Origin: a virus | Reading direction: 5' to 3' (one strand) | Virus record (IMG/VR): IMGVR_UViG_3300021438_000007 | Coordinates: 1-35,047 of that record | Length of the DNA: 35,047 nucleotides | In this document: piece by piece, positions 27,945 to 31,187 of the stretch | How positions within the stretch are numbered: the stretch's first letter is position 1 | Layout of the letters: every line of letters begins with the position of its first letter | Program-made: the position numbers and the translations under genes | The notes under the pieces: generated by a model | The model's database searches: none | Seen by the model: the letters and a program-made list of their open reading frames with translations, nothing else | What the model was told of the DNA's origin: nothing

Positions 27945-28136
27945 ATGAAATCAAATCAATTTGAATCATTGGCGGCTGTTACATGGCACGCTGAAGATGT
28001 GCAGACATTAAAACCAAACTGGAGCCTTGAAAAGTGCAACGAGTGGTTAGAAGATAATGAAAGGCACATGCAAGACAGGCTTATCGAATTAGGCTGGGAG
28101 GTTATGGACGCTCTTTTAATGACTGAAAGCGAGTAG
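27945..28136 (+). CDS. Small hypothetical protein
   Basis: 63 residues: AAVTWHAEDVQTLKPNWSLE, KCNEWLEDNERHMQDRLIEL, GWEVMDALL. Two amphipathic helices; the W-H-x-x-D-V-Q and C-x-x-W-L-x-x-N-E-x-H patterns recur in small proteins of phages and mobile elements. The gene has the GAAAGGTATAT leader and ends four bases before the recombinase ATG. Confidence 0.65.
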   Translation: MKSNQFESLAAVTWHAEDVQTLKPNWSLEKCNEWLEDNERHMQDRLIELGWEVMDALLMTESE

Positions 28137-28139
28137 GCC

Positions 28140-28826
28140 ATGAAATTTATCGCTTACTATCGCGTCTCAACTGATAAGCAAGGCCAAAGCGGTTTAGGCC
28201 TTGAAGCGCAACAGATGATCTGTTATGAGTACGCGCGGCGGGTCAATGCCGAAATAATCTCAGAGTTTACAGATATTGAAAGCGGCTCAGATAATCATCG
28301 GCCTGAGTTGAATAAAGCGCTGGCCATGTTAGAACTTGAGAGCGGGTCTAGGTTGCTGGTTGCTAAGCAATGCCGCCTTACTAGATCCGTTGCATTGATG
28401 AGTAGCCTTCTGGAAAAGAAGGTGCCGCTCACTATTGCCGAAACTCCAGAGGCAAGCATTTTTGAGTTGCATATTCGTGCTGTCTTAAATGAGGAAACAA
28501 GGCGTCAAATCTCTATAAACACGCGCAATGCGTTAATGGCAGCCAAAGCTAGAGGCGTTAAACTTGGCGCGCCGAGAGATGCATTACTAGAAGCATCAAA
28601 GCGAGGTGGCTCAACATCTCGTGATATCAAAATTGAATTTGCCATGAGCATCAAGCCTATGATTGATTTGGCTATTGCTAATTGTGGCAAACCTTCATGT
28701 CGTAACATTGCAAAGAAACTCAATGAATTAGGTGTCAAGACTTATACAGGCCACACGTGGACTGCGCCTAATGTATCCTATTATCTAAACACTTACAAAG
28801 AGAAAGCGAGAATATACAATGAATGA
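28140..28826 (+). CDS. Small serine recombinase (resolvase/invertase type)
   Basis: 228 residues. Catalytic domain: AYYRVSTDKQ with R8 and nucleophile S10, the QSGLGLEAQ segment, and CRLTRSVALM with R79 and R82. A long helix (RRQISINTRNALMAAKARG) leads to a C-terminal HTH (NCGKPSCRNIAKKLNELGVK, TYTGHTWTAPNVSYYL). This is the size of resolvases and invertases, not of large serine integrases, and no attachment site is seen. It could resolve genome multimers or invert DNA. It overlaps the exonuclease gene by 8 bp. Confidence 0.88.
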   Translation: MKFIAYYRVSTDKQGQSGLGLEAQQMICYEYARRVNAEIISEFTDIESGSDNHRPELNKALAMLELESGSRLLVAKQCRLTRSVALMSSLLEKKVPLTIAETPEASIFELHIRAVLNEETRRQISINTRNALMAAKARGVKLGAPRDALLEASKRGGSTSRDIKIEFAMSIKPMIDLAIANCGKPSCRNIAKKLNELGVKTYTGHTWTAPNVSYYLNTYKEKARIYNE

Positions 28827-29781
28827 TAAAGCCATGGGAAAACTCACGCCTGATGACATGATGTCATGTTCAAGGCTCCCAGCGTTATTAGGTTTAAGCA
28901 AGTTTCGAACGCCTAACGATGAGCTGAAATACTCAATCAATGCAATCAATAAAGAACCCAATGAGTTTATTGAGAATGAGCCTATTCTGTGGGGAAATCT
29001 TACAGAGAAGTTAATACTCGCTGAGGCATCAAAAAGACTTGGCGTTGATATTGATAATCTAGCACATGATAAACCTTACTTTCATCCTGACATCCCATTG
29101 GCTACAAGCCTTGATGGCACAGCGTCTGGCAATGATACGACTATTTACACAGACATAGAAAAAGGTATTTATGTCATGGGTCAAGACTCTATCAAGTTAG
29201 ATGGCTATGGCATTCTAGAAGCTAAACTCACAGCTCAAGAAGTTGAGACTGAGCCAGCGCCTTATCGTGGTGTCATACAGCTTCAAGGTCAGATGGATAT
29301 TATGAAAGCTAAATGGGGCGCATTGTGTGTGTTATACAGAGGTACAACATTGCGTATCTTTTTGTATGCAATCAATGAAGATCAAGTCAATATGATTCAT
29401 CAAGCCACAGAGGATTTTCAGAGGCGTTTAGATAAGTACAAAACCAATCAAGAGATCGAATGGTATGAGTTACAAAATGCTTTTGAAGCGAGTCGTATCT
29501 TTGACCATGCGGAAAAGAGTACGATTGAGTTACCCGAAGTTGAGATCCAAGCTGAGAAAATCATAGAACTTCGTGAACAAATCATGGAGTTAGAGAATGC
29601 GATTGATCGCTTGCAGATCAACATCATGGAGAAAATGCGTGATGCTGAGGTGTGCAATGCTGGTCGTTACAAAATATCATGGCCTATGCGAAGCTACAAA
29701 GCACAGCCAGAAAAGAAGGTGCCAGCTAAACATGCCTATGTTATCCGTCAATCTAAATTGTCAATCAAGGATAGAATATGA
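28819..29781 (+). CDS. YqaJ-like recombination exonuclease
   Basis: 320 residues, PD-(D/E)XK nuclease of the YqaJ/lambda exonuclease type. Motifs: SRLPALLGLSKFRTPNDEL at the start, WGNLTEKLI (conserved Glu), LATSLDG (Asp), ILEAKLT (E-x-K) and the RGVIQLQGQMD helix. The last 90 residues are a coiled coil and a basic tail (RSYKAQPEKKVPAKHAYVIR). It resects 5' ends so that the neighbouring ERF protein can anneal single strands. Confidence 0.88.
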   Translation: MNDKAMGKLTPDDMMSCSRLPALLGLSKFRTPNDELKYSINAINKEPNEFIENEPILWGNLTEKLILAEASKRLGVDIDNLAHDKPYFHPDIPLATSLDGTASGNDTTIYTDIEKGIYVMGQDSIKLDGYGILEAKLTAQEVETEPAPYRGVIQLQGQMDIMKAKWGALCVLYRGTTLRIFLYAINEDQVNMIHQATEDFQRRLDKYKTNQEIEWYELQNAFEASRIFDHAEKSTIELPEVEIQAEKIIELREQIMELENAIDRLQINIMEKMRDAEVCNAGRYKISWPMRSYKAQPEKKVPAKHAYVIRQSKLSIKDRI

Positions 29782-30515
29782 ACGATCAAGATCGATTTGA
29801 AACAGAAGTTATGAATGAACTACAACAACAGGAGAAAAGTATGAAAACTATAGCAACAGCCTTTGTTAAGGCGCAGAAAGAATTTGCACCAGCACTCAAG
29901 ACATCAACGAATCCACATTTTAGATCTAAGTATGTGTCTTTAGATGGATGTATTGAAGCTGTCATTGATGCATTAAACAATAATGGCATTGGACTTATTC
30001 AAAGCACTTTAGATTGTGATAATGGTGTTAAGATTGAGACAGTACTTATCCATGAATCAGGTGAGACTTTATCTGGTGGCATCTTGCATGTACCAGCAGT
30101 AAAACAAGATGCTCAAGGATACGGATCAGCATTGACATATGCCCGTAGATATAGCCTTATGGCTACTTGTGGCATAGCTCCAGAGGATGATGATGGTAAT
30201 TTAGCTACAGAAAGAGCTGGCAGTGTTGTAAAAAAGCAACAAACTAGCGGTTTTACCTTCTATATTCCTAACAAAGACCCGATAGAGCTATCGGATGTCT
30301 TGACATGGCAAGCAAAGTTCGATGAAATGAGTGAACAGTTAGTTAATTCTAGCTTAAACCCAGAGGATAAGATATCGAAACTAAAGGCATTAGTAGACGC
30401 TAACCAGCCCACACTAAACCGCCTACCCATAACAGTTAAGATGCAATATATAGGCAAGCAAGCCACACGCATCAACACAGTGAAAGGAAAATCAAATGAA
30501 ACAGTACAAAACTAA
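29778..30515 (+). CDS. erf: ERF family single-strand annealing protein
   Basis: 245 residues. ERF signature: FVKAQKEFAPALKTSTNPHF, RSKYVSLDGCIEAVIDALNN, NGIGLIQS, then GYGSALTYARRYSLMATCGI followed by APEDDDGN. This protein anneals complementary single strands and partners the exonuclease encoded just upstream, with a 4-bp overlap. The AAGGA site lies 7 bases before the ATG. It gives the phage its own recombination route and could feed concatemers to the terminase. Confidence 0.92.
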   Translation: MNDQDRFETEVMNELQQQEKSMKTIATAFVKAQKEFAPALKTSTNPHFRSKYVSLDGCIEAVIDALNNNGIGLIQSTLDCDNGVKIETVLIHESGETLSGGILHVPAVKQDAQGYGSALTYARRYSLMATCGIAPEDDDGNLATERAGSVVKKQQTSGFTFYIPNKDPIELSDVLTWQAKFDEMSEQLVNSSLNPEDKISKLKALVDANQPTLNRLPITVKMQYIGKQATRINTVKGKSNETVQN

Positions 30516-30696
30516 CTTCAATGCTTTTGAATGGCGTTTCCCACGCTCATTTAAAGAACTCAATGGCTATGAATACGAGGTGACTTTAGAGTCCCCAAAA
30601 GAGAAAAGGCAACGCATATGGAAGGCCACTAGGATTTCCATAGGCATTGCCCTATCTGTGTATGCTTGGCTTACTTATTCATTACATACATTGTAA
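30496..30696 (+). CDS. Small membrane-anchored protein
   Basis: 66 residues. A soluble N-terminus ([40 protein letters not shown]) is followed by one C-terminal membrane segment ([17 protein letters not shown]). It starts inside the end of the erf gene after AAAGGA and converges with pqqA, overlapping its 3' end by 26 bp. Function unknown. Confidence 0.65.
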
Positions 30697-30742
30697 CTTC
30701 GAAGCCGAAGCGCATTTCAGTAGCTGCTGGTTTTGTCCACAT
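30671..30742 (-). CDS. pqqA: PQQ precursor peptide PqqA
   Basis: 23 residues, exactly the length of many bacterial PqqA peptides. It begins [13 protein letters not shown] and ends VMNK. The diagnostic core is FEVTMY, with Glu15 and Tyr19 in the E-x3-Y spacing. In known systems the radical-SAM enzyme PqqE, with PqqD, joins these two residues, and PQQ is built from them. AAGGAG lies 7 bases before the ATG. It is on the minus strand inside the plus-strand early block, with its own extended -10 promoter. No other pqq gene is present, so host enzymes must process it. It suggests a host using PQQ-dependent dehydrogenases, for example for methanol or sugars. Confidence 0.85.
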
Positions 30743-30765
30743 AATAGTTCTCCTTTCGTGAGTTC

Positions 30766-30774
30766 ATTATGCCA
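30766..30774 (-). promoter_or_regulatory. Leftward extended -10 promoter of pqqA
   Basis: On the minus strand TGG followed by CATAAT (30774-30766) fits an extended -10 element; no good -35 is visible. Transcription would start near 30759, giving a leader of about 17 nt with the AAGGAG site. An AT-rich near-palindrome (about 30777-30795) lies just upstream, between pqqA and the divergent hydrolase gene. Confidence 0.5.
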
Positions 30775-30833: not shown

Positions 30834-31187
30834 ATGTTAGATGTTGCAGCAGTCATGTGTATGAGTTTAACTATGTTCCATGAAGCCAGAGGCGAACCAG
30901 TTTCTGGCCAAGTGGCAGTAGGGTATGTACTATATCGGAGAGCAGACTTCAATCAAAAGAATATATGCTCGGAGACTTTCAAAGCAGATCAATTTGAATG
31001 GACTCAAAAGACCAAATATATACCGCCTTACAAAACACTCAAACCATTTATAGAATTATCCCAAAAAATTATCAAACAAGAAATCAAAGATAGTAGCAAG
31101 GGAGCCATGTATTTTCATAGTGTGTCATTGCATAATCAATGGGGCATGAAACCAAGAACCATTATCAATAACCATGTATTTTATTAG
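30834..31187 (+). CDS. SleB/CwlJ-like cell wall hydrolase
   Basis: 117 residues, close to the minimal catalytic domain. AVMCMSLTMFHEARGEPVSG (E17, in the M-x-x-E-A-x-G motif), QVAVGYVLYRRADF, ICSETFKADQFEWTQ and AMYFHSV match the SleB/CwlJ family, which cuts peptidoglycan. There is no signal peptide. AAGGAG precedes the ATG. It is encoded with early genes, apart from the GH24 lysozyme in the late region. Confidence 0.8.
   Translation: MLDVAAVMCMSLTMFHEARGEPVSGQVAVGYVLYRRADFNQKNICSETFKADQFEWTQKTKYIPPYKTLKPFIELSQKIIKQEIKDSSKGAMYFHSVSLHNQWGMKPRTIINNHVFY

Follow-up and report, generated by a model that had tools for sequence, protein, structure and literature searches.

Stand-alone pqqA genes encoding a PQQ precursor peptide in an MEP301-type podovirus and other phages of Methylophilaceae

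All positions refer to the window analysed here, a 35,047-base virus contig. It contains genes for TerL, a head–tail connector, ERF and YqaJ, which identify it as a genuine phage genome. When its proteins were compared with those of OM43 phage MEP301, 22 of 36 matched, with identities of 85% for TerL, 85% for the capsid and 83% for the portal (head–tail connector). Judged by these matches, the window is an MEP301-type podovirus. MEP301, the nearest isolate, infects OM43 (a Methylophilales strain), which bears out the methylotrophic host hinted at in a first-pass annotation of the sequence. The region around pqqA has the following features:

29778–30515 (+): ERF-family ssDNA annealing protein (PF04404 and PHROG), past the 3′ end of pqqA
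30496–30696 (+): 66-codon ORF from the ORF list, convergent with pqqA; its DNA is well conserved in relatives
30671–30742 (−): pqqA, 23-codon PQQ precursor peptide plus stop codon (PF08042, TIGR02107); identical to host PqqA; kept in 16/16 nearest phages
30686–30688 (−): Tyr19 codon (sequence); kept in 120/120 phage copies among the matches listed
30698–30700 (−): Glu15 codon (sequence); kept in 120/120 phage copies among the matches listed
30750–30755 (−): AAGGAG ribosome-binding site (sequence), 7 bases 5′ of the pqqA ATG
30766–30774 (−): candidate extended −10 box TGgCATAAT (sequence), without a consensus −35
30834–31187 (+): cell-wall hydrolase (PF07486), in divergent orientation beyond the 5′ end of pqqA

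The pqqA frame opens with an ATG at 30742, closes with a TAA at 30673–30671 and is the lone minus-strand gene among plus-strand neighbours. Going by sequence, this arrangement corresponds to a 'moron', a gene that has been inserted and has a promoter of its own. The last 26 nt of pqqA overlap the 66-codon ORF, which is probably a gene and whose product would have a hydrophobic C-terminus. The ERF gene also adjoins pqqA in MEP301. At 28140–28826 (+) lies the gene for a small serine recombinase that lacks a clear large-integrase domain. Scans for Rfam families and tRNAs found no match in the window, and PADLOC gave none for pqqA and five other window ORFs.

The window peptide scored above the curated cut-offs of both family models, with 42.4 bits against Pfam PF08042 (E 6.4e-11; cut-off 21.1) and 40.4 bits against TIGR02107 (PQQ_syn_pqqA, an NCBIfam equivalog model; cut-off 20). 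A whole-record PqqA search returned a single match (E 2.3e-11) and no match in 14 control genomes. Among the PHROGs, no family matched the peptide. In characterised PqqA, Glu15 and Tyr19 are the crosslink partners joined by PqqE. Both residues are present here as E15-V-T-M-Y19, the Glu-x-x-x-Tyr arrangement within some 20–24 residues that is expected of a PqqA. The first-pass annotation had described a 23-codon minus-strand PqqA-like gene with an E15-V-T-x-Y19 core, a strong AAGGAG ribosome site (30755–30750) and no other pqq gene nearby. All of these points held; in the window as a whole, pqqA was the only pqq gene seen. The usual, though not obligatory, pqqBCDE neighbourhood is thus missing, which we do not count against membership because Methylophilaceae also keep orphan pqqA copies (PMC4109929).

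The signals upstream of pqqA were compared across phages. A Shine–Dalgarno-like motif precedes the gene in 111 of 114 dereplicated phage copies. Among the phage loci listed, pqqA is antisense to both neighbours in 61/143. Upstream of 34 dereplicated antisense copies, sigma-70-like signals exceeded dinucleotide shuffles (z = 3.75), whereas they were not enriched upstream of 47 co-directional copies (z = 0.90); dereplication was at 75% ungapped identity, and the copies are not fully independent. The 'own extended −10 box' of the first pass fared less evenly. The string TGgCATAAT exists and a CATAAT-type −10 recurs in relatives, but its TG is not conserved and a generic promoter scan of the window did not call it. 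Neither a consensus −35 nor an intrinsic terminator was found at the window pqqA. MEP301 has no RNA polymerase gene (PMC8024684); host polymerase would therefore transcribe pqqA.

Within the collections searched, which may omit the nearest records of the window, all 16 nearest relatives carry pqqA at the same place and in the same orientation, antisense just past ERF. MEP301, a phage of the same type, has its own pqqA with this place and orientation; its PqqA peptide differs from that of the window and the gene is unannotated there. The frame, Glu and Tyr that the first pass had singled out are kept in related phages. Both residues are also kept in the 120 phage copies among the matches listed, a set selected by a DNA pattern on codons 2–14 only, which avoids bias at either position.

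The window peptide is identical over 23/23 residues to chromosomal PqqA of the OM43-type strains LSUCC0401 and KB13, of Methylopumilus and of Methylophilus, in agreement with the first pass, which had named Methylophilaceae among candidate hosts. Genome contigs with a similar DNA pattern were, among the matches listed and where named to family or genus, Methylophilaceae. The chromosomal genes share with the phage gene the peptide and a ribosome-binding site, and are often orphan copies away from pqqE; the window gene differs in lying on a phage genome with its own flanks and in 4–13 of 69 bases, all synonymous. We found pqqA in 80/80 Methylophilaceae genomes (mean 4.5 copies, range 1–12) and in 37/150 genomes of the wider order. 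According to published work (PMC4109929), Methylophilaceae have 3–12 pqqA copies, whereas the remaining pqq genes are single-copy. The 17 genomes of ≤ 1.4 Mb hold a mean of 2.7 copies; even these streamlined genomes thus retain about three, away from pqqE. PqqE and a PQQ-dependent alcohol dehydrogenase each exceeded the cut-off in 8/8 host genomes.

The gene is under purifying selection. Against the OM43 copies the window gene has seven differences, and the chance that all seven are synonymous is about 7e-6. For 127 distinct phage pqqA genes, a set largely conditioned on the search pattern, pS was 0.62 and pN 0.098. In a set of phages picked by their neighbouring ERF gene, and so free of this bias, pS was 0.341, pN 0.047 and pN/pS 0.138. 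With a host homologue that encodes the identical peptide and a pN/pS of this size, the gene is a candidate auxiliary metabolic gene.

A tblastn search of 50,697 phage records detected PqqA in nine cultured methylophage records (Venkman, P19250A, MEP301, MEP401, MEP402 and four Melnitz) and one uncultured podovirus. Two contigs of a mislabelled bacterial entry also matched; this entry, 'Acinetobacter phage MD-2021a' (CAKLQF020000010.1), carries a polyphosphate kinase and a pqq operon and was dropped. A divergent Acinetobacter PqqA as query returned the same set of phage records. All nine cultured methylophage records found, which represent four distinct phage groups and include the T4-like Melnitz, carry pqqA. 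In the collection, tblastn with pelagiphage head proteins did not bring up the Methylophilales phages MEP431–434 (possible counter-examples), and HIM624-A is represented by a partial genome only. In all methylophages tested, PqqA was detected by an HMM whose alignment contained no phage sequences; the same HMM found no PqqA in the SAR11-infecting relatives HTVC202P, HTVC112P, Hodr and Baldr or in T4-like HTVC008M. The gene therefore tracks the host rather than the phage lineage.

The first pass had expected standard gene callers to skip so short a gene. This is correct for MEP301, Venkman, P19250A and MEP401/402, which have no annotated feature at pqqA; in Melnitz and the Manatee Spring phage, a 'hypothetical protein' is instead called on the opposite strand. 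The methylophage literature searched does not mention pqqA.

In IMG/VR, at least 120 further contigs carry pqqA; these copies were found by DNA patterns, so that counts are lower bounds and the sample is conditioned on the pattern. Single linkage on ≥ 2 shared proteins sorted the 167 phage loci listed into 23 gene neighbourhoods. The cultured phages fall in three of them: MEP301, Venkman and P19250A belong to a single large cluster, joined through recombination genes that they share, and MEP401/402 and Melnitz lie apart. Since the first three are joined by these genes, pqqA may have travelled among them with the recombination module. Exactly one pqqA copy was present in 20/20 larger virus records checked, and neither PqqE nor a PQQ-dependent alcohol dehydrogenase exceeded the cut-off in any of the 20. 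Together with their presence in all eight hosts, this fits the earlier proposal that the phage would supply only the substrate and use host enzymes. A recognisable phrog_2 TerL was found in 11/19 pqqA virus records, the rest being fragments or having other TerL types. In one virus contig of 356,312 bases (L363), pqqA is followed by a clear hairpin and T-run terminator, and the TerL match contains stops. Four further loci (L011, L017, L020 and L024) encode more divergent PqqA peptides (MWTKPTYE.IRLGFEVTMYFKN.), which suggest phages of other PQQ-making hosts.

We consider it likely that the gene is a functional pqqA from Methylophilaceae hosts that, as a single-gene unit in a podovirus of OM43-like methylotrophs, boosts or sustains PQQ for XoxF. 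Among the other readings, the one that fares best, though still improbable, is a working PqqA with a role outside methanol oxidation (redox protection, lanthanide handling or another PQQ enzyme). The hosts show more than one match to PQQ-dependent dehydrogenases, and PqqA has been proposed to belong to a lanthanide uptake route (PMC11317620). Against this, xoxF is the dominant OM43 transcript (PMC5120137), and pqqA is paired with methanol dehydrogenase in Baikal T4-like phages (PMC7678222).

Much less probable is that the 69-bp pqqA is an attP site for integration or recombination, a host gene fragment used by the serine recombinase rather than a working gene. The recombinase gene lies 1.8 kb away, hosts hold several pqqA copies, and the longest exact match to host pqqA reaches 36–38 bases, starting immediately 5′ of the start codon and running to codon 11. 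An exact run of this length is all that was found, however, and the complete frame is kept with start, stop and ribosome-binding site. Phages differ strongly from one another at synonymous sites (pS 0.34–0.62), the opposite of what a core site kept at the DNA level would show. Furthermore, 153 host pqqA loci contained no relative of any of the 36 window proteins, the T4-like Melnitz carries the gene too, and the match of the recombinase to the large-serine-recombinase domain falls below the cut-off. Accordingly, we rejected the attachment site.

A decoy that ties up PqqD/PqqE and reduces PQQ in the host, or one that diverts SAM, appears marginally less probable again. PqqA does bind PqqD, and a shift in periplasmic metabolism could benefit the phage. 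A decoy would, however, be expected to lose its crosslinkable residues, whereas the phage peptide is identical to the natural substrate and both residues are retained throughout the copies listed; we rejected it on these grounds. A neutral passenger, easily captured as a short gene with several host copies, can be dismissed almost outright given a pN/pS of ≈ 0.14, retention in place in 16/16 relatives, spread over about 23 neighbourhoods among the loci listed and absence from SAR11-infecting relatives.

Provision of PqqA for XoxF would proceed as follows. The gene would have been acquired from Methylophilaceae hosts and placed on the strand opposite to its neighbours, where host sigma-70 RNA polymerase would transcribe it. 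The phage peptide, the same as that of the host, would bind host PqqD; host PqqE would crosslink Glu15 to Tyr19; and a host protease with PqqB/PqqC would complete PQQ. One PqqA is consumed per PQQ, and added template would therefore raise or sustain the supply of what would be the rate-determining substrate. XoxF, the PQQ-dependent methanol dehydrogenase and main energy enzyme of the host, would thereby be kept charged during phage DNA synthesis. According to PMC11317620, PqqA availability was reported as rate-determining in Methylovorus MP688, a strain of the Methylophilaceae (Ge 2015, cited there), and pqqA was reported as dispensable for PQQ in Methylobacterium extorquens AM1, where orphan copies were unexamined. 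The top OM43 transcript is xoxF, and OM43 methanol dehydrogenase is among the most abundant coastal-sea transcripts and proteins (PMC5120137). Because PqqA is consumed, reported as rate-determining in that one Methylophilaceae strain and multi-copy in hosts, and xoxF is dominant, supplying the peptide alone would be a cheap support of methanol oxidation. As OM43-sized host genomes already hold about three copies, an extra one would matter only with high phage copy number or promoter strength in infection. A rise in PQQ during infection is what we infer from these considerations.

Phage-encoded PqqA as such is already known (PMC7678222, PMC13188868). It was reported in Lake Baikal T4-like phages together with methanol dehydrogenase; viral populations VP_266 and VP_139 are, like the window, predicted Methylophilaceae phages with PqqA, but they additionally carry methanol dehydrogenase and, in the case of VP_139, radical SAM proteins, whereas the small podovirus of the window has pqqA alone (PMC7678222). 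The same paper states that P19250A encodes none of the reported auxiliary genes; contrary to this, P19250A (KX815270.1) has pqqA at 28085–28153 (−). A 2026 paper described viral pqqA, pqqD and pqqE from reservoir metagenomes, virus-encoded PQQ genes as here, and read them as phosphate solubilisation (PMC13188868). The occurrence of pqqA throughout all methylophage groups found, and its stand-alone form, appear undescribed in the literature searched.

Whether pqqA is a near-universal, repeatedly acquired, single stand-alone hallmark of Methylophilaceae phages, such that supply of the 23-residue precursor limits infection, seems to us evenly balanced; if true, pqqA would also give a simple indication of the host of uncultured phages. 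Usual annotation does not cope with so short a gene: every cultured methylophage record found either lacks it or has a call on the wrong strand there. Its 69 bases offer a marker for phages of methylotrophs. The finding raises a testable question, namely whether methanol oxidation in infected OM43 cells is limited by the supply of PQQ. By supplying just the consumable peptide, a phage may control an entire cofactor pathway.
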